Shown: positions 6,743 to 62,998 of the stretch, piece after piece
Layout: each line of letters begins with the position of its first letter
Position numbering within the stretch: position 1 is the first letter of the stretch
Assembly: GCF_002019635.1 (NCBI RefSeq)
Contig: NZ_KV917371.1
Location: forward strand, 496,001-560,000
Reading direction: 5' to 3'
From: Metabacillus halosaccharovorans
Lineage (GTDB): Bacteria; Bacillota; Bacilli; Bacillales; Bacillaceae
DNA: 64,000 nucleotides
Notes under the pieces: model-generated
What the model was told of the DNA's origin: nothing
The model's database searches: none
The model's input: the letters and a program-made list of their open reading frames with translations, nothing else
Made by a program: the position numbers and the translations under genes

Positions 6743-6991
6743 ATGTTGTTTGTTACTTTGTTATTACCGGTCATTGTACCTTATGGATGTCCTGTGACTT
6801 TTTTGGATCCACGGGCTAATTATAAAAGAGAAACAGAATTCTTTACCTGGATAACATCCGTTAAAGAAGAGAGTCCACAATATCCACAAGTACCATTATT
6901 AAAAAGTGAAGAGTTCGAAAAGCATCAAGCTACTTTTATTGAAGGTGAACAAGAAACGCAAACGAAATTTGTCCCTAGCAGGGTATCATAA
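6743..6991 (+). CDS. Small hypothetical protein with hydrophobic N-terminus, 82 residues
   Basis: The ATG is chosen because GAGGTGG lies 5 bases upstream; an in-frame GTG earlier falls inside that box. The N-terminus (LFVTLLLPVIVPYG) could be a membrane anchor or a non-cleaved signal. The rest is polar and rich in Glu and Lys with several Pro residues. No family is recognised. It converges on the malic enzyme gene. Confidence 0.5.
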   Translation: MLFVTLLLPVIVPYGCPVTFLDPRANYKRETEFFTWITSVKEESPQYPQVPLLKSEEFEKHQATFIEGEQETQTKFVPSRVS

Positions 6992-7008
6992 TATGTTTCC
7001 ATGCACTC

Positions 7009-7041
7009 AAAAAAAAGAATGCCCATTAAATGAACATCCTT
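7009..7041 (-). terminator. Terminator of the malic enzyme gene
   Basis: On the minus strand AAGGATG pairs with CATTCTT (one G-T wobble) and is followed by a run of eight T residues, just after the malic enzyme stop. Confidence 0.6.
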
Positions 7042-7056
7042 AGAGTCACATATATA

Positions 7057-8499
7057 TTAGTAAGTTGTTGCTAGTGCATTTTCTTCCTTAAACAAGTCCT
7101 TTCTAGCGACACCTGACTTATATGCCGCTTCAACGACTGCTTCTCTTACTTTCTCTACTACTTTTTGATTAAAGACACTTGGGACAATATATGTTTCACT
7201 TAATTCCTCGTCAGAAACAACACTTGCTATAGCTTTTGCTGTCGCTAACTTCATTTCTTCATTAATTTCAGATGCACGGCAATCAAGAGCACCCCGGAAA
7301 ATTCCTGGAAAACATAAAACATTGTTAATTTGATTCGGATAATCTGATCGGCCTGTCGCTAAGACACGTACAAAAGGTTCGGCTAGGTCAGGGTCAATTT
7401 CCGGTACCGGGTTTGCTAGCGCAAAGACAATTGGGTCATTCGCCATTGTTTTTAAATGACTTTCAGTTAATACTCCTGGTGCAGATACACCGATGAAGAC
7501 ATCCGCTCCTTTAATCACATCACCTAGAGCACCCTTTTCATTATAGGGATTTGTCATATTCGCAAAGTCCGTCCAATTCTGATGATCATATACCTCATCA
7601 CGGTGAAGAGCACCTGCACGATCTACACCAATAATATGCTGAACACCAGCTGCAATCAGCATTTTCGCACAAGCTGTTCCTGCAGCCCCAACACCGTTTA
7701 GAACCACTTTAATCGATTCGATTTTTTTGCCCGTTAACTTAAGTGCATTATAAAGACCAGCCAGCAATACAACAGCGGTCCCATGCTGATCATCGTGAAA
7801 AACCGGGATATCTAATTCCTGTTTAAGTCTTGCCTCAATTTCAAAGCACCTTGGTGATGAGATATCTTCAAGATTGATTCCACCGAACGCTGGTGCAATT
7901 GATTTTACAATGGAAACTATTTCATCAGGATCTCTTGTATCCAAGCAAATAGGAAATGCATCAACACCTGCCATTTGTTTAAATAACATCGCCTTACCTT
8001 CCATAACAGGCATGGCTGCGAGCGGACCAATATCTCCTAATCCAAGAACAGCTGTACCATCTGAAACAACTGCAACTGTATTTCGTTTAATCGTTAAAGA
8101 ATGTGCTTTAAGCGGTTCATCAGCAATCGCACGACACACTTGAGCAACTCCCGGCGTATAAACTCTTGATAAATCATCACGGTTTTTAATTGGATTTTTT
8201 GGTGTTACTTCAATCTTGCCTCCAAGATGTAAAAGAAATGTTCTGTCTGAAACAGAGATGACCTTAACACCTTGTAAGTTTTGAATAGCATCCATTACAC
8301 TCTGTCCATGTTGCTGATTTTTCACCGTGATGGTGATATCTCGTACAGTTTGGACTTTACTAGTGGAGATGACATCAATACCTATAACATCTCCGCCTGT
8401 TTCACCAATGACTTTTGCTATTTCACTAAAGGTAATAATGTTTTTCTGAAAATGTAATCGAATAATGATATTCATGCTTGCATTGCTCAATTGAGACAT
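7057..8499 (-). CDS. NAD-dependent malic enzyme with N-terminal ACT domain
   Basis: Cytosolic enzyme that oxidatively decarboxylates malate to pyruvate. The 480-residue protein has an ACT-like N-terminus (about residues 8-85), then the malic enzyme core: SRVYTPGVAQVC, the substrate region GTAVLGLGDIG and PVMEGKA, and metal ligands in NLEDISSPRCFEIE and PVFHDDQHGTA. The NAD-binding fold carries VLNGVGAAGTA, and a late conserved ALANPVPEI follows. GGAGG precedes the ATG. It is the first gene downstream of a region carrying the TGAACAAA repeats shared with citM, which suggests co-regulation with citrate uptake. The ACT domain implies allosteric control by an unknown ligand. Confidence 0.9.
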   Translation of the reverse strand: MSQLSNASMNIIIRLHFQKNIITFSEIAKVIGETGGDVIGIDVISTSKVQTVRDITITVKNQQHGQSVMDAIQNLQGVKVISVSDRTFLLHLGGKIEVTPKNPIKNRDDLSRVYTPGVAQVCRAIADEPLKAHSLTIKRNTVAVVSDGTAVLGLGDIGPLAAMPVMEGKAMLFKQMAGVDAFPICLDTRDPDEIVSIVKSIAPAFGGINLEDISSPRCFEIEARLKQELDIPVFHDDQHGTAVVLLAGLYNALKLTGKKIESIKVVLNGVGAAGTACAKMLIAAGVQHIIGVDRAGALHRDEVYDHQNWTDFANMTNPYNEKGALGDVIKGADVFIGVSAPGVLTESHLKTMANDPIVFALANPVPEIDPDLAEPFVRVLATGRSDYPNQINNVLCFPGIFRGALDCRASEINEEMKLATAKAIASVVSDEELSETYIVPSVFNQKVVEKVREAVVEAAYKSGVARKDLFKEENALATTY

Positions 8500-8698
8500 G
8501 TTTAACCTCCAAAAGCTTTACCTTTTCTGGGGATATTGAAAACAACCATTCTAATTTTTGTACGTAGCGAAGCTTGTAAGCTTGCTGAAACTAGATTGGT
8601 TCTGTTGGAAGCGTTTTAATATCCTCACTACGATCGTAATACAAATCATGAAGTTTGTAACCGTTCTCTACATTTATTGTTTTAAATTTATTTCAGAT

Positions 8699-8718
8699 AT
8701 TTTGTTCATTTTGTTTAT
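8699..8718 (-). promoter_or_regulatory. TGAACAAA tandem motif upstream of the malic enzyme
   Basis: The minus strand reads ATAAACAAA followed by ATGAACAAA, two 9-bp units in direct repeat, about 200 bases upstream of the malic enzyme start. The same unit recurs upstream of citM and of the 51-residue gene. I infer a binding site for the CitT response regulator, or another regulator of this block. Confidence 0.45.
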
Positions 8719-8730
8719 GGGGTTTCATGT

Positions 8731-9801
8731 TTAGCCGATATCTGCCGCTTCATGCTGATGTTCATTTTTACCGAAGTACCCTCTTAGAAAAATCGGAACA
8801 ATAAATAAGATAAAAAACACCCGAAATAACTGATAAGCTGCTACTAATGACACATCTGCCTGGACAGTATGAGCAGTGACACCCATTTCAGGCAAGCCAC
8901 CTGGGGCAATACATAGAAAAGCAGTAGCGATTGTCATTGGATAAAAAATATGTAACACATAGGCAAGGAAAAAGGCGAAGCCTACGATTGAAAGACCTGA
9001 TAATAGTGTAATGGGTAATAACCTTTTCCAATCTCCCAGCATATCTACCTTCATACTCAAGCCCAGGTATATCCCTAAACACAGCTGAGCTATAAGGTTT
9101 ACAGATGAAGGTAATTCCGACGGTTCCATACCTGTTATTGAAAGAAAAGCTACTGATAGGAGTGGTCCAATAATCCATGGAGTTGGGCATTTATAGTGTA
9201 CAGCTATTTTTGTCACTATAAATATGAGAGAGAGATAAAATAGAGTCTCCAACCCCACAATTGATTGCTCTGCTCCTGAACTTTCTTCCATAGGTAAAAC
9301 TGCTTCTGCACTTGAGAACGTATGAATAGCCAAGGTTGGAACAATAAATATGACAGTTAGCATTCTAATCGTTTGCATGAACGTAACAATTGTAGGTTCT
9401 GCCCCTTTTATTTCTTCACTTAACACCACCATTTGTGATAAACCACCTGGGGTTGTCCCCATCACAGCACTTGGAAAAGAGGTAGTGGTAAATTTTGAAA
9501 TGAGCGTTGCCATGATTAGCCCAAATCCGACCATAAGTGTCGTACTAAGCACCATTGATGGAAACTGATGCAGAATTTGTCTTGCACTTTCTGCTGTAAA
9601 AGATAAGCCCATACTATATCCCAGAACGAACTGACCTCCATTTTTGAATCCAACCGGCCAATTCAACTCCCGTTTGGTAAAAAGTTTCCATACAATCACA
9701 GCTGTTAGTGGACCTAACATCCATGCCAAAGGAAGCTGAAGCATATGAAATAAAAAGCCGCCGCCCATTCCAATTATGACTGTTTCTATAAACTTGAACA
9801 A
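8731..9801 (-). CDS. AbrB-type membrane protein (ammonia monooxygenase-like, PF05145 type)
   Basis: The 356-residue protein has about ten hydrophobic segments arranged as two homologous halves. Each half carries the family pattern: GPLTAVI and TPGGLSQM in the first, GPLLSVA and APGGLPEMG in the second. The family is commonly annotated as AbrB-family transcriptional regulator or ammonia monooxygenase, but the sequence is plainly an integral membrane protein with transporter-like duplication. The start is a TTG 9 bases after GGGGG. It lies between the malic enzyme and citrate genes, so an organic-acid transport role is conceivable. That is inference. Confidence 0.75.
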   Translation of the reverse strand: MFKFIETVIIGMGGGFLFHMLQLPLAWMLGPLTAVIVWKLFTKRELNWPVGFKNGGQFVLGYSMGLSFTAESARQILHQFPSMVLSTTLMVGFGLIMATLISKFTTTSFPSAVMGTTPGGLSQMVVLSEEIKGAEPTIVTFMQTIRMLTVIFIVPTLAIHTFSSAEAVLPMEESSGAEQSIVGLETLFYLSLIFIVTKIAVHYKCPTPWIIGPLLSVAFLSITGMEPSELPSSVNLIAQLCLGIYLGLSMKVDMLGDWKRLLPITLLSGLSIVGFAFFLAYVLHIFYPMTIATAFLCIAPGGLPEMGVTAHTVQADVSLVAAYQLFRVFFILFIVPIFLRGYFGKNEHQHEAADIG

Positions 9802-56525: not shown

Positions 56526-56892
56526 ACACTTCCTCCTCCACTATTACTATAACAATTGCTACTTCATTTCTAAAAGTTAAGCCAGCATTAATTTTTCCGT
56601 TCTACTTCACTGCTTTATAAAACAAATTATATCATGATTCCACATGTATTAAATATTCTGCTTATTATTTCCGAAAATTAGTTACATATTATGGCAAGCT
56701 GTTTTTGATACTTTGTATTTTCAAATGTAAATATAAAGGTAAAAATGAGTTCGTTAATAAAATATTATAAGCAACGATGTATGTGAAAACAGTCTAATTA
56801 AATGAAACGAACAGTTTATTATTAGTAGTTTTACATGCTAGAATTGAAGATGCCATTATAAAAAATTAACTTAGATTTAGAAGGTGCTGTTT
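56526..56892. other. Gene-free AT-rich stretch
   Basis: These 367 bases between divergent genes hold no supported frame. They must carry the promoters of fra and of the membrane-fused flavoprotein gene. I see no palindrome, cre box or leader hairpin in them. Confidence 0.6.
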
Positions 56893-58728
56893 ATGCCGGA
56901 CTGGTCTTATCATCCATTAAAAAAACTCTTACTCAATAAGCTACATGCAAAAACAAGCCGGGAGTTTCTTCATAAATCAATGAGTACAATAGCATCCACT
57001 CCTGGAGGTAGGTCTGTTATTGGATTTTTGGGACATATGAACCCTCCACGGGAACTTCAACAGAATATTTATCGTACAAAATTTTCTTCTCCTATTGGGT
57101 TAAGTGGCCATATTGATCCAAATATGTCAGGTTTAAATGCCTTTCAAGAATTGGGCTTCGGATTTTTAGAAATAGGACCCATTGTGTTATATGGACCTTC
57201 GGATAAAAAAGAACCGAAGTGGGAAAAAGGAAAACTTTTGTTTTCAAATCAGCAGGAAAAGGTTCCTCTGAAACTGGTAATTAAAAAATTAACAAGACTG
57301 AATATCCGTATTCCCATAATTGCTAAAATAGATGCACAAGTTACTAGAAATGAGTGGGAGATCATTGTGCAACATTTAACGCCATATGTAGACGCATTTA
57401 TTGGAACACCCAAGCAAATACACTCATATATCACAACTAATAGGTCACAGTGTTTGGATCGTTCTTTTTATATGTCTTTTTCTCCTGATGAACTAGATAA
57501 TAACAACATACAATTGAAAGATTTAACACAACATTCATGTATTGGTGGCGTAGTGATAAATGCACCACGTCAAACTGAGGGCAGCTATTGGTATGAAGCC
57601 ACACATGCAAATGAGCTTTTAACAAAAACAATAAAACGGGTCAAAGCTCTATTTCCTGAGCTAATAGTTATAACCTCAGGTGGAGTGGAGACACCAGAAG
57701 ATGCTTTTTCTTTAGTTCGTGCCGGTACAGATTTGTTCATGTTAACAGATGGCTATGTAAAAGCTGGACCAGGACTGCCGAAGCGAATTCATGAAAGATT
57801 ATTATATGAAGAAGTTCAACCATTGAATAACCAGAACTGGTATTGGTCATTTCTGTTTGGACTCTCCATCTTAATTGGAGGTATCATTGCCTTATATTTT
57901 GCCATTACAAGTATTATCCTTCCTTATGATGAAGCCTTTATTGGACTGACTAAAGCAGATATCTTACAAGTAAATCCACTTATCCTGGCGTTTATGTCCC
58001 ATGATAGAATGGCGTTAGCAGGCACAATGATATCCGGCGGTATCATCTATATTCAGCTTGCACGACATGGAATTAAATATGGTATGCATTGGGCTAAAAT
58101 TACGTTTCATAGTGCAGCAATCATAGGTTTCCTTGGAATTTTTCTATTTATCGGCTTTGGGTACTTTGATTGGCTACATGGTTTGTTTTGGCTTGTCTTA
58201 TTACCTATCTATTATTTCAGCTACAGAGAAGGAAAAAAGATTATCGATTTCCCTGCTTCTAGTCATGGTAAGAATGATAGAACATGGAAACTTGGTCTTT
58301 ATGGACAACTCATGTTTATTATTCTGGGCTTTTCGATCATTGTTGGAGGTATCGTTATTTCTATAATAGGTGTGACAAATGTGTTTATAACAACAGACGT
58401 AAGCTTCCTGTGTATGTCACCACAAATGATCGATACTTTAAGTAACAATTTAATTCCTGTTATCGCACATGACCGAGCTGGATTTGGAAGTGCACTAGTA
58501 AGTGTTGGTTTACTTGTTTTAATGCTCTCATTATGGGGGTTCAGAAAAGGAGAGCACTGGATTTGGAATACCCTTGCGATTGGAGCATTACCTGCATTTA
58601 TAGCTGGAGTAGGAACACATTTCTATATCGGTTATACAACCTTTATCCATTTACTTCCTGTTTACTTTTTAATCATCTTATATTTTACAGGTCTAGTATT
58701 ATCTTATCCTTTCTTAAAGAAAAAATAA
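56893..58728 (+). CDS. Dihydroorotate-dehydrogenase-like domain fused to a membrane domain
   Basis: Residues 1-300 resemble a class 2 DHODH-type FMN barrel: FSSPIGLSGHIDPNMSGLNAFQELGFGFLEIGPI near the start, and ELIVITSGGVETPEDAFSLVRAGTDLFMLTDGYVKAGPGLPKRIHERL at the end for FMN phosphate. The central catalytic segments are divergent (IIAKIDAQ, VVINAPRQTEG), so pyrimidine synthesis is doubtful. Residues about 310-611 hold about eight hydrophobic helices in two halves, each with an AHDR/SHDRM-(A/G)-(F/L)G element (FMSHDRMALAGTMISGG, VIAHDRAGFGSALVSVG). AAGGTG precedes the ATG at 56893. A membrane redox enzyme is my reading; the substrate is unknown. Confidence 0.7.
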   Translation: MPDWSYHPLKKLLLNKLHAKTSREFLHKSMSTIASTPGGRSVIGFLGHMNPPRELQQNIYRTKFSSPIGLSGHIDPNMSGLNAFQELGFGFLEIGPIVLYGPSDKKEPKWEKGKLLFSNQQEKVPLKLVIKKLTRLNIRIPIIAKIDAQVTRNEWEIIVQHLTPYVDAFIGTPKQIHSYITTNRSQCLDRSFYMSFSPDELDNNNIQLKDLTQHSCIGGVVINAPRQTEGSYWYEATHANELLTKTIKRVKALFPELIVITSGGVETPEDAFSLVRAGTDLFMLTDGYVKAGPGLPKRIHERLLYEEVQPLNNQNWYWSFLFGLSILIGGIIALYFAITSIILPYDEAFIGLTKADILQVNPLILAFMSHDRMALAGTMISGGIIYIQLARHGIKYGMHWAKITFHSAAIIGFLGIFLFIGFGYFDWLHGLFWLVLLPIYYFSYREGKKIIDFPASSHGKNDRTWKLGLYGQLMFIILGFSIIVGGIVISIIGVTNVFITTDVSFLCMSPQMIDTLSNNLIPVIAHDRAGFGSALVSVGLLVLMLSLWGFRKGEHWIWNTLAIGALPAFIAGVGTHFYIGYTTFIHLLPVYFLIILYFTGLVLSYPFLKKK

Positions 58729-58731
58729 AAA

Positions 58732-58780
58732 CTCCCCTTAAGATAAGCAGTTGTTCATGTTTAACCTATCTTAAGGGGTG
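58732..58780. terminator. Hairpin between converging genes
   Basis: CTCCCCTTAAGATA pairs with TATCTTAAGGGG around a 21-base loop just after the flavoprotein stop. Confidence 0.65.
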
Positions 58781-58834: not shown

Positions 58835-59623
58835 TCAATCGTCATTTTCATTATATAAAGCTTCCATCACTCTTCCTATTTCCAATAAGTAGGCTTCTTC
58901 TTTAGGTGTTAATAAAGTAGGAAACTGAAAATTTATGACATCTGATTCCATTACTTCCTGTGCTTGTACAAGTTGATCTGCAAGCTCTTCTTTATTTTCG
59001 ACATGTTTTGTTGCCAATTCAGTTAGTTTAACAAGAACATCAAATGCTTCTGGCGATTGTGGTGAAACTTCATCTTTCATCAATTTTTTCACCGTTGCCA
59101 ACCAATCTAACATTTCAACATCTAATTGTTGACGCTGTTTTTTGGGAAGAGAAAAAAATTGATTCGCAATGTCATCTGAAAAATATTCTTTTACCCATTC
59201 CATTTGGTCTTGTTCATGTTCCATCTGAAAAAGTAAAGAACTTAAAACCGTCCACGTGATCGACTTTCCATTTTCGATTAAAAATTGAACTCGCTCTACT
59301 GCTTCGATTGCACGATTTAACTCGTTTCTCTTTTCTGTCAGAAGATTATGTTGCAAGGGTAAAGATTTATTCAGTTGAGTAACAGCATCCGTATCGTTTT
59401 CAATTAATTTTTTTATTTCCTGTAAAGAGTATCCTAAAAATTTTAGAGACTGAATTTGTTGCAGTTTCGCTAATTCAGTTAATCCGTATAACCTGTGGCC
59501 AGAGCTGTTTTGTTGTGTTGGTTTCAATACTCCGATTTCTTCATAAAACCGTAAAGTTCGTACCGTGATCCTTGCTCGTTTTCCAAACTCACTAATAGTA
59601 AAAAACGGTTCTTGATTTTCCAT
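58835..59623 (-). CDS. MerR-family transcriptional regulator with long effector domain
   Basis: The 262-residue regulator has an N-terminal MerR winged helix (FTISEFGKRARITVRTLRFYEEIGVLKPTQQNSSGHRLYGLTELAKLQQIQSLKFLGYSLQEIKKLI), a coiled-coil dimer helix (about 85-120), and an all-helical C-terminal domain (about 130-262) of TipAS-like size. No metal-binding Cys are present, so a drug- or organic-ligand sensor is likely. GGAGGG precedes the ATG. No partner gene is adjacent on the same strand. Confidence 0.8.
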   Translation of the reverse strand: MENQEPFFTISEFGKRARITVRTLRFYEEIGVLKPTQQNSSGHRLYGLTELAKLQQIQSLKFLGYSLQEIKKLIENDTDAVTQLNKSLPLQHNLLTEKRNELNRAIEAVERVQFLIENGKSITWTVLSSLLFQMEHEQDQMEWVKEYFSDDIANQFFSLPKKQRQQLDVEMLDWLATVKKLMKDEVSPQSPEAFDVLVKLTELATKHVENKEELADQLVQAQEVMESDVINFQFPTLLTPKEEAYLLEIGRVMEALYNENDD

Positions 59624-59808
59624 TATTCGTCATCCCTCCATAAATTTAGGTTAGCATATGACGTAAGGGAGGGAGCAAGACAAAAACAAATTTGGCGTAT
59701 AAAATTCCACTAATTAGTTGAAAGACCCTCACAACCTACCCGCATTAGACTTCATGAATAATGTAACATTAGTTGGATAGCGATTTTTTCACTTTGGCTA
59801 TATATTAA

Positions 59809-59834
59809 AACCCTCAATCCAAAGATTGAGGGTT
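59809..59834 (-). terminator. Terminator of swrC
   Basis: AACCCTCAATC pairs perfectly with GATTGAGGGTT around CAAA; the minus strand continues with TTTTAATAT. Confidence 0.85.
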
Positions 59835-59849
59835 CTCGTCATTCCAAGA

Positions 59850-62800
59850 TTAATTTTCTTCTACTTCTTTACGATTTTTCTTCAACATTTTTGAAAGTAC
59901 CTCATATACAATCGGCACAATGACTAATGTTAAAATGGTTGACGATGTGAGACCACCAATTACTGTGATGGCTAATCCTTTTGATATTAGGGCTGATCCT
60001 GCACCCTCAAATACCATTGGAATCATCGCGCCAATCGTTGCAATAGCTGTCATTAAGATTGGGCGTAGTCTTGTAGCTCCTGCTTCAATAATCGCATCAC
60101 GTAATGACATTCCATCGCGTTCCATATGAATAATACGATCCACAAGAACAATCGCGTTTGTCACAACAATACCGATTAACATCAATAGCCCCATCATAAC
60201 CGATACAGAAATTGTTTCACCGGCGATCCATAGCCCTACAAAGGAACCAATTACGGCAAATGGTAATGAGAAAAGAATCGCGAATGGTGCTAAACCTTCA
60301 CCGAATGTGACAACCAAGATAAAGTAAACAATGAGAATTGCTGCAATCATTGCGATACCTAGTTGTGTAAATGTTTCTTGCATGTCTGCTGCAACACCAG
60401 CAACTCCAGTTTCTACACCTTTAGGTAAATCCAAATCATTAATCTTCTCATCCGCTTCGGTTGTTGCCGTAGAAACATCATCAGTCATTACTGTACCAGA
60501 AACAGTTGCATAGAATTCCCCTTTACTACGGGATAGTGTGTTATAAGTCGTACCCTCTTCTGTTTTAACTAGCTCAGATAAAGGCATTGTGGAACCTGTA
60601 GCAGTAGGGATTTCTGTTTCAAGTAGTTCATCAATTGATGTTGCGTCCATTTTTTCTTCGCGTTGAACGATAACATCTATTTCTTCTCCGTCATTTTCCA
60701 CTGTTGTTAACACTTCTTCAGAGCCTGTAGCTGATAATGTTCCAACGATTTGTCCAGTTGTTAAACCATATTGCATAATATCCTCGTGATCTATTTTCAG
60801 CACATGTTCAACATATGGATTTTCCATATCAGATTCTACATCTTCAAGGTTTTCTACCTCTTTTAATGCGCCCTCTACTTGATTAACTGCCTTATTTAGA
60901 TCATCTAAGTCTTCACTATACAGTGTATAGCTTACTTCGTTTGTTGCCATTCCTCCGCCCATCATGTCCTGGGATTTCCATTCACCTGATTGGCCAATGT
61001 TAAAGACATACTCTTCAACTTCTTCTTTTACATCGGAGAAGTTTTCCGTATCTTCATTAAAGAATAGATACATTAATGCACCGTTTCCTCCACCCATCAT
61101 CATCGTGGATGCGTCTGCACTATCACTATTGTTAAATGATAATTGAACAGTCTCCAGATCATCACGCTTCATTAATTCTTTTTCGACTTCTTCAAGATTT
61201 TTTAACGTTTCATCTTCAAGTTCACCTGTAGCTGGTGTATAAGTCAAATAGATTACTTTTTCTTCTTCAGACCCCATAAAACTGAAACCAATTAGTGGAG
61301 TCAGCGCAAGTGAGCCAACTAATAATACGATCGCAATTAAGGATGTAATGATTTTATGATTTAGTACTTTTTCTAGAACACCTTTATACCAAGTTGCAAT
61401 TCTTCCAACCTCTTTATGCTTCGATGCTTTTTTCTCTCCGTATAATTTCTTACGGAATAAGAAGTGAGAGAGCGCCGGCACAATTGTGATTGCAACAAGC
61501 AATGATGCACCAAGAGCAAATGTCATTGTTAAAGCAAATGGTCTAAATAATTCACCAACCATCCCGCCCACTAACATAAGTGGTGCGAATACCGCAACTG
61601 TTACAAGTGTGGAAGAAAGAATTGGTTTAAACATTTCAATTGTTGCTTCACGGATTAACGCACGTCCTCGAAGCTTCTCTTCTTCAAGGTGCATCCTTCT
61701 ATATATATTTTCCACTACAACAATCGAGTCATCGATAACCCGGCCAATCGCAACCGTAATCGCACCCAATGTCATAATGTTTAATGTTATATCAAGCCAA
61801 TTTAACAATAAAAATGCCATAAAGATGGATACTGGAATTGATATAATCGAAATAATCGTTGATTTGATATCACGAAGGAATAAAAGAATAATGATGATCG
61901 CGAACAAACCACCGAATAATGCTTTTTCTACCATCGTGAAAACGGAATCTTCAATTGGTTCCGCTTGGTCTAACGTAACATCGATAACTAAACCATCTAT
62001 GTCCTTTTCTTGTTCCGCAATTAAATCTTTCACAGCGTTCACAACGTCTACTGTGTTTGCCTGTTGTCCTTTTGTTATTTGGACAGAAATGGCTTCTTCC
62101 CCATTTGTACGCGAAATAGATTGTACCTTACCAACTGTTTCTATCTTTGCAATATTACCTAGTTTTACAAATGGATTTGGATTTTTCTCTGATGGTGTAA
62201 CAGGTATTAGCAGCTCTTTTAATTGCTCAACAGTTTTAATATCACCGTCAATAGAAAGAGCTTGTTCACCTTCTTTATATTCCTGCAGGCCTAGAGATAA
62301 GGCCATATCACTTGCTTGGACCATTTGCTTAACAGTATCCTCAGTTAAGCCTAACTCTTCCATTTTTGCATGGTCGTAAGTGAATTGTACTTCCTCAAGA
62401 TGTTGACCGGTAATCGTTGTAGATCCAACTCCATCTATTTTTTCTATTTCCGGGAGGATTGTTTCTTCAACGGTTGTAGATAAGTCAACAATATCACCCT
62501 CTGTGCTGCTGATAGATAACGCAACAACCGGCATCATATTCATACTAAGAGCCATTATTGTTGGTTCTTCAGCATCCTCGGGCAATGAAATATTATCAAT
62601 TGCTGCTTCAAGTTCACGTTTTTTCTCATCCATATCTACGCCATATTCATACTCGATCTGGACTTGAGCCACGTTTGCTGAAGAATTTGAATAAACAGCC
62701 GCAACATCTTCAAGGCCCTCTATATTCTGCTCCATTGGCATCGATATTTCATCCATTACTTGCTCAGCCGTTGCCCCTGGATAAACCCCCATCACAATTA

Positions 62801-62936
62801 AATACGGTATGGATACATCCGGAATACTTTCCATTTTCATTTTTGTCCCGGAATATAAACCTGCAACAGTTATAATAATCGTTAATAACCATACAGCAAG
62901 TTTATTTTTCAGGACGAAGTTGACTAAACTTTTCAA
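59850..62936 (-). CDS. swrC: RND efflux transporter, SwrC (AcrB family)
   Basis: The 1028-residue membrane pump has 12 transmembrane helices, two large external loops and the RND signatures MGVYPGATAEQVMDEISMPMEQNIEGLEDV, GRVIDDSIVVVENIYRRM (with the proton-relay Asp residues) and GIVVTNAIVLVDRI in the second half. The Gram-positive homologue SwrC (YerP) exports surfactin-like lipopeptides and confers resistance in B. subtilis. TTG 62936 is chosen because GGAAGGTG lies 6 bases upstream; GTG 62945 overlaps that box. A divergent TetR-type gene and two operator-like boxes lie upstream, as for yerO-yerP. Confidence 0.85.
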   Translation of the reverse strand: MKSLVNFVLKNKLAVWLLTIIITVAGLYSGTKMKMESIPDVSIPYLIVMGVYPGATAEQVMDEISMPMEQNIEGLEDVAAVYSNSSANVAQVQIEYEYGVDMDEKKRELEAAIDNISLPEDAEEPTIMALSMNMMPVVALSISSTEGDIVDLSTTVEETILPEIEKIDGVGSTTITGQHLEEVQFTYDHAKMEELGLTEDTVKQMVQASDMALSLGLQEYKEGEQALSIDGDIKTVEQLKELLIPVTPSEKNPNPFVKLGNIAKIETVGKVQSISRTNGEEAISVQITKGQQANTVDVVNAVKDLIAEQEKDIDGLVIDVTLDQAEPIEDSVFTMVEKALFGGLFAIIIILLFLRDIKSTIISIISIPVSIFMAFLLLNWLDITLNIMTLGAITVAIGRVIDDSIVVVENIYRRMHLEEEKLRGRALIREATIEMFKPILSSTLVTVAVFAPLMLVGGMVGELFRPFALTMTFALGASLLVAITIVPALSHFLFRKKLYGEKKASKHKEVGRIATWYKGVLEKVLNHKIITSLIAIVLLVGSLALTPLIGFSFMGSEEEKVIYLTYTPATGELEDETLKNLEEVEKELMKRDDLETVQLSFNNSDSADASTMMMGGGNGALMYLFFNEDTENFSDVKEEVEEYVFNIGQSGEWKSQDMMGGGMATNEVSYTLYSEDLDDLNKAVNQVEGALKEVENLEDVESDMENPYVEHVLKIDHEDIMQYGLTTGQIVGTLSATGSEEVLTTVENDGEEIDVIVQREEKMDATSIDELLETEIPTATGSTMPLSELVKTEEGTTYNTLSRSKGEFYATVSGTVMTDDVSTATTEADEKINDLDLPKGVETGVAGVAADMQETFTQLGIAMIAAILIVYFILVVTFGEGLAPFAILFSLPFAVIGSFVGLWIAGETISVSVMMGLLMLIGIVVTNAIVLVDRIIHMERDGMSLRDAIIEAGATRLRPILMTAIATIGAMIPMVFEGAGSALISKGLAITVIGGLTSSTILTLVIVPIVYEVLSKMLKKNRKEVEEN

Positions 62937-62998
62937 AAATGACACCTTCCTCTTCCTTTTGATTAAGGTTGATTACTCTGATATAATGTAAATGTTAA

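Follow-up and report, generated by a model that had tools for sequence, protein, structure and literature searches.

The window, a stretch of 64,000 nucleotides from Metabacillus halosaccharovorans, contains a gene whose product joins a barrel of the dihydroorotate dehydrogenase (DHODH) type to a predicted eight-helix membrane domain (Table 1). The gene stands alone, with a divergent DUF1801 gene on one side and a convergent MerR-family gene on the other. Downstream and convergent to the fusion, on the reverse strand (58835-62945), this MerR-family regulator adjoins a 1031-aa AcrB-type RND transporter. In the upstream comparison the ribosome-binding site AGAAGGTG is retained across much of the window's clade, and ACATGCTAGAAT is present in 10 of 24 upstream regions from that clade; the extended -10-like TGCTAGAAT is a candidate for the gene's own promoter. 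A promoter consensus scan by itself gave nothing above chance, nor did a terminator scan, which did not score the inverted repeat after the stop codon as terminator-like. Most relatives open with [ML]PDWSYH at the same point. The N-terminal MPDWSYH (56893..56913, + strand) is near invariant, yet residues 2-6 are the sole segment with pLDDT <50 in the AlphaFold model of the window protein, a low confidence that would fit a segment binding something else.

Table 1. Features of the fusion gene, in positions of the window; residues are those of the encoded protein.
Feature	Position	Strand	Basis
Whole gene, 611 aa and stop	56893..58728	+	ORF: ATG at 56893, last sense codon ends at 58725
Ribosome-binding site AGAAGGTG before ATG	56879..56886	+	sequence and upstream comparison
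Extended -10-like TGCTAGAAT, candidate own promoter	56836..56844	+	upstream comparison
DHODH-type barrel, residues 1-312, active-site motifs lost	56893..57828	+	PF01180, AlphaFold model, motif alignment
TSGGVETP, residues 261-268, phosphate-binding motif remnant	57673..57696	+	motif alignment
GPGLPKRIHE, residues 292-301, strongly conserved, runs into TM1	57766..57795	+	motif alignment
Membrane half 1, residues 313-454, TM1-TM4	57829..58254	+	model and hhalign
HDR 1, residues 370-372	58000..58008	+	family alignment
Invariant His429 of GYFDWLH	58177..58179	+	family alignment
Membrane half 2, residues 455-611, TM5-TM8	58255..58725	+	model and hhalign
HDR 2, residues 526-528	58468..58476	+	family alignment
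Invariant His576	58618..58620	+	family alignment
Invariant His586 of IGYTTFIH	58648..58650	+	family alignment
Inverted repeat CCCCTTAAGATA...TATCTTAAGGGG after stop, possible terminator	58734..58778		read by eye

Both sequence and predicted structure place the barrel with DHODH, as the original prediction had done. DHO_dh was the sole Pfam match of the window protein (PF01180, cut-off 27 bits; the protein as a whole scored 33.8, its best single stretch alone 24.5), and all 61 aligned family members matched it at E<=1. On the NCBIfam quinone-DHODH models the best score was 68.5 bits, far below the cut-off of 267. The AlphaFold model of the whole protein reached a pLDDT of 89.0 (61 sequences). 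Its closest PDB fold was H. pylori DHODH (6b8s_B; Z 30.3, rmsd 2.7, 302 aligned residues, 16% identity), with DHODH structures at Z 27.6-30.3 among the 50 fold matches listed. The N-terminal helices, which in class 2 DHODH form the quinone tunnel, align with those of the E. coli and H. pylori enzymes. Barrels of the GGGP/PcrB, IMPDH, FMN_dh and HisA/HisF types gave weak matches in some members (2-20 of 61); the Pfam FMN_dh match was found in 15 of them (best 1.4e-07), and that of the GGGP synthase models covers residues 236-282, the phosphate motif of the window protein. The family shares with class 2 DHODH (PF01180/TIGR01036) the barrel fold, the N-terminal helices, GLxxxxD, E-x-G, GG and GP. 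It differs in lacking three loops (catalytic Ser, substrate and FMN) and the Lys, in carrying eight extra helices and in sharing its genomes with another DHODH. Moreover, class 2 DHODHs associate with the membrane peripherally, whereas the models, with eight long helices after the barrel, predict that the window protein is integral.

Active-site motifs were counted in 61 family members, namely the window protein and 60 of the 80 named loci (alignment A3, from which the broken loci L072 and L096 and near duplicates were left out), aligned with eight DHODHs from the same searches that we take, judging by their motifs, to be class 2 enzymes; a ninth DHODH locus (L037) was left out of this alignment. 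The residues concerned serve catalysis and FMN contact in DHODH. In the catalytic Ser loop NxSSPNTP, 61/61 members have gaps at the second Ser and at PNTP, which 8/8 DHODHs possess, so that the last five residues of SSPNTP are missing throughout the family. The Lys of LDK is kept in none of the 61 and is Pro in 57, and of the substrate loop NRMGFNN the residues N, R, M, G, F, N and N are kept in 0, 0, 0, 0, 3, 2 and 0 members, respectively. The FMN-contact motifs fare no better (N of VNIG in 1/61, K of VKIAPD in 0/61, TGGLSG in 0/61). The LDK Lys, the N, R and G of NRMGFNN, the end of SSPNTP, the VKIAPD Lys and TGGLSG are all present in 8/8 DHODHs, save for the T of TGGLSG (6/8). The catalytic segments that had been noticed as altered in the window protein are thus missing from every aligned member. 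Since the FMN-contacting Asn and Lys and the TGGLSG loop are gone, bound FMN seems unlikely, and a noncanonical flavin site is possible. Other landmarks are retained: Gly69, Asp75, Glu93, Gly95 and GP in 61/61 members and the GG pair of the phosphate site in 59 and 54 of them, and of that site mainly GG and GP remain. Because the barrel keeps GG and GP and is also under purifying selection, it may do more than hold its fold. In the divergent members L135-L139 the catalytic loops are absent too and the phosphate region is, to the eye, closer to that of DHODH, and L140, a more divergent member outside the 61, has kept LDK; L135-L140 are possible intermediates of barrel decay.

An ordinary DHODH accompanies the fusion in the genomes tested. 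A full-length DHO_dh match with an E-value of 2.9e-98 or better was found in 40/40 other fusion genomes tested, which were hand-picked among the genomes with a strong fusion match. The window's genome has a separate full-length DHO_dh gene inside a pyrimidine cluster, with neighbouring ORFs that we take to be pyrK-, pyrF- and pyrE-like. A second PF01180 match about 10.5 kb beyond the end of the window (L124), whose look suggests a gene of the Old Yellow Enzyme type, was set aside as unrelated to the fusion. Together with the lost motifs, the coexisting DHO_dh genes agree with the earlier view of the fusion as a separate, membrane-integral protein and not an ordinary class 2 DHODH, and it is very likely that the gene product has a job other than the pyrimidine-synthesis one under which a related record is labelled.

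The membrane domain comprises residues 313-611 and forms eight long helices according to DSSP of the AlphaFold models, the number originally proposed. Modelled alone it reached a pLDDT of 91.7 (55 sequences), the seventh helix being broken at residue 565, and a simple hydropathy scan (threshold 1.6) marked five of the eight helices. Comparison of the two halves with hhalign (probability 98.3, E 2.3e-14, score 87.1) far exceeded the controls, which scored 15.7 with a reversed half and 22.0 in the best of 30 column shuffles. By this profile evidence, the domain is an internal duplication of a four-helix unit, and the duplication read from the window alone was confirmed. An HDR(M/A)xxxG element had been claimed for both halves, and the HDR part of it held well: HDR occurs in each half in 100 of 101 distinct family sequences (114 with identical ones collapsed, including the readable parts of L072, L096 and L144), the exception being L144, which is split between frames. 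The two HDRs are 156 residues apart in 99 sequences and 155 in one. The xxxG part fits half 1 only, where HDRMALAG agrees with HDRMxxxG; half 2 reads HDRAGFG, with Ser at the place of half 1's last Gly. As half 2 deviates after HDR, the core common to both halves is HDR itself.

Conservation is concentrated in the membrane domain. In a wider set that includes Mycobacterium (n=24), the invariant residues are a Tyr-Asp (YD) pair, both HDRs, His429, Gly-Gln 471-472, Asp502, His576, Tyr581 and His586. Identity to the window protein is higher in the membrane domain than in the barrel in 60/60 relatives (means 65.4% versus 42.5%), and invariant residues number 68 of 299 in the membrane domain and 26 of 312 in the barrel. 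Omega over seven pairs was 0.045-0.091 for the membrane domain versus 0.187-0.325 for the barrel, and by these ratios both domains are under purifying selection. Searches of the membrane domain of 24 members against Pfam and NCBIfam gave scattered weak matches only (best 0.08 and 0.0074, respectively).

The orientation of the domain was judged from loop charges. Mean K+R on the side taken as inner was 3.07 in the TM2-3 loop, 5.18 in TM4-5, 1.64 in TM6-7 and 1.48 at the C-terminal end, while the outer loops averaged 1.75, 0, 0.97 and 0, with D+E exceeding K+R in each of them. Since Lys and Arg are concentrated in the TM2-3 and TM4-5 loops, and less so in TM6-7 and at the C-terminal end, the barrel and the C-terminal end are predicted to be inside. 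This would put the HDR motifs and the FDWLH and TTFIH segments outside the cytoplasm, on the opposite side of the membrane from the barrel. Contrary to the predicted topology, the outer TM1-2 loop (1.75) averages slightly more K+R than the inner TM6-7 loop (1.64), and acidic residues outnumber basic ones at the junction that leads into TM1 (K+R 2.13, D+E 3.23).

Among the fold matches listed for the membrane domain one stood out, chain O of 8xqw from the Chlamydomonas Ycf2-FtsHi import motor. VIA gave Z 16.9 with an rmsd of 3.9 over 247 aligned residues, the next match being at Z 8.2, while helical models can reach Z 13-14 through arrangement alone. Foldseek gave a non-significant E of 0.19, with a probability of 0.99, TM-scores of 0.53/0.50 and an rmsd of 8.0. 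The likeness lies in the eight-helix arrangement over those 247 residues, but chain O is eukaryotic, has 10% identity and showed no sequence kinship in the searches; comparison of the membrane domain, including that of the M. branderi protein described below, with PDB chain sequences gave no convincing match. No subunit name for chain O was found in the literature search, which included PMC13399175. We treat this model-based match as a lead.

The family reaches beyond Bacillales in Mycobacterium. A hypothetical protein of 505 aa encoded on plasmid pJCM12687 of Mycobacterium branderi (WP_083132801.1) matches the membrane domain at 38-39% identity and resembles the window protein in having both HDR motifs, an N-terminal PDWTYHP and EIGPV; VPDWTYH is its counterpart of MPDWSYH. 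It differs in the region preceding the membrane domain, which is shorter by about 110 residues and has no PF01180 match. This one intact protein suggests that much of the barrel can be lost in the family without loss of the N-terminal motif or the membrane domain. A plasmid of Mycobacterium intracellulare carries a 74-residue ORF (L134:2501-2725) whose first 61 residues are 69% identical to the M. branderi N-terminus; it may be a remnant or an N-terminal piece in its own right.

In a collection with one genome per species, 186 of 202 pattern matches encode a relative of the membrane domain, and the best 80 of these 186 relatives are the named loci. Open, full-length fusions were found at 78 of the best 80 loci, and L072 is frame-broken. 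L096 (Neobacillus novalis, 6900-9000) is interrupted after KRIN, where an in-frame stop separates the barrel from the membrane domain and two open frames result; error, decay or a natural split are possible. A sample of the order gave a match in 101/397 genomes, of which 97 were strong, including one copy split over two frames (G497), and four were weak (G066, G072, G074 and G672). Within the genus, 13/21 genomes have a full-length copy, the window's own counted, and two more have C-terminal remnants only (L024 in G015 and L023 in G017), a sign of gene loss. No full-length copy was found in 39 genomes of other genera of the same family. Across the phylum, sampled evenly, the membrane domain occurred in 2/398 genomes, one of them the window's own.

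The nearest relatives by membrane domain, Bacillus sp. J37 (99%) and Metabacillus niabensis (98%), are also the nearest rows in a quick tree, where the window's clade (26 rows, SH-aLRT 97) contains Oceanobacillus, Domibacillus, Lysinibacillus, Ureibacillus, Neobacillus, Cytobacillus, Metabacillus malikii and others. The copies of M. bambusae, M. litoralis and M. crassostreae fall in another clade. This spread of Metabacillus copies over different clades suggests that transfer or differential loss shaped the family. A viral or mobile origin was considered and rejected, since no relatives were found in viral contigs or phage records, no defence-system model matched and a viral fold search gave no good match. 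PHROGs gave one match of unknown function over the C-terminal part of the barrel (E 4.9e-07) and weaker ones. Literature listings searched for the family itself gave nothing.

The protein is not a DHODH, and we think it probable that it is a pseudoenzyme barrel capping a membrane domain, with a putative outward His/Asp/Arg site as the working part. In this family of Bacillales membrane proteins a class 2 DHODH-type barrel has lost its chemistry, as the motifs absent in 61/61 members indicate, and would now be a cytoplasmic cap, docking or sensing domain. The duplicated eight-helix domain would do the work, to which its repeat, its stronger conservation and its survival in the Mycobacterium protein point. 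If the loop charges are read correctly, the outer side holds both HDRs, the Tyr-Asp pair, Asp502, His429, His576 and His586, which most likely form one putative ligand pocket at the outer leaflet. Its ligand may be a metal, heme, or the head group of an anionic lipid or metabolite, which would be transferred, sensed or modified there, and what is left of the barrel's phosphate motif may still bind a phosphorylated regulator. A bolder version, which we regard as a long shot, would make the HDR domain a new membrane module acting at the outer face, with a fold common to bacteria and a chloroplast AAA+ import motor, for which the dead barrel would serve in the cytoplasm as a sensor or docking platform.

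Among the alternatives, the protein could be a membrane scaffold or assembly factor in which the eight helices pack against other membrane proteins, as the fold neighbour does in the chloroplast Ycf2-FtsHi motor, the dead barrel offers a place for docking and HDR is structural. Pseudoenzymes often act as platforms and the sole outstanding fold match comes from the Ycf2-FtsHi motor, which would suit such a role. Yet that match is not significant in Foldseek (E 0.19, rmsd 8.0), Z 13-14 is reachable by helix arrangement, no PDB chain gave a convincing sequence match to the membrane domain and the number of invariant polar residues speaks for a site more than for packing, so we consider a scaffold rather unlikely. 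The original prediction was that the fusion may be a separate redox enzyme that passes electrons to quinone; a flavin barrel would oxidise a substrate and the membrane domain would hand on the electrons. The class 2 DHODH fold with its still aligned quinone-tunnel helices, the histidine-rich membrane domain and the weak FMN_dh matches in 15/61 members are in line with this. Since most FMN-holding residues are not conserved (1, 0 and 0 of 61 for the three contact motifs), it is rated low, the catalytic loops are lost as well, the HDR motifs are predicted across the membrane from the barrel, and the Mycobacterium relative keeps the membrane domain with a shrunken barrel; electron transfer to quinone is therefore quite improbable.

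A working dihydroorotate dehydrogenase anchored through the membrane domain is more doubtful still. The whole-protein PF01180 score lies above the cut-off, and a relative on the 690-kb plasmid of Cytobacillus spongiae (L130:4080-5852) is annotated as 'dihydroorotate dehydrogenase', but the catalytic Ser loop is absent in 61/61 members, the best NCBIfam quinone-DHODH model gives 68.5 versus 267 bits and another full-length DHO_dh match is present in 40/40 genomes. The lost motifs and the coexisting DHODH lead us to reject this role as highly improbable. A chance ORF, a pseudogene or an assembly fusion could be read from the broken relatives (L072, L096 and L144) and the C-terminal fragments in G015 and G017. 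This reading is refuted by the family data, namely 78 of the best 80 loci that are open and full length and purifying selection on both domains, and its likelihood is negligible.

The family provides a natural example in which an enzyme barrel has been retained as a likely non-enzyme. A common Bacillales protein can carry the name of a pyrimidine enzyme despite lost active-site motifs, as in the Cytobacillus record, the one such record seen, and counts of DHODH genes based on PF01180 would be misled. The protein should have its own name in place of the DHODH label. Its strictly conserved membrane domain is without a model in Pfam or NCBIfam, and its function can be approached through deletion in a tractable member of the Bacillales.

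The gene neighbourhood was compared over the best 80 loci with a simple ORF caller, and no recurring neighbour was found over the family. The largest cluster, of the response-regulator type, covered 13 loci with its members scattered in position. Several smaller clusters (5-6 loci) kept constant places, each limited to few related loci. An operon or partner gene was rejected on this basis. A permease gene, by its look presumably a nucleobase permease and without an NCBIfam match at E<=1e-10, occurs in 10 of the 80 loci. It is directly downstream on the same strand, at 26-344 bases, in six of them (L104, L106, L114, L115, L117 and L118), at 1.7-1.9 kb in three and far upstream in one. As nine of the ten loci belong to one tree clade, we read the adjacency as local synteny, though it is a lead and could hint at a nucleobase-linked role of the family.
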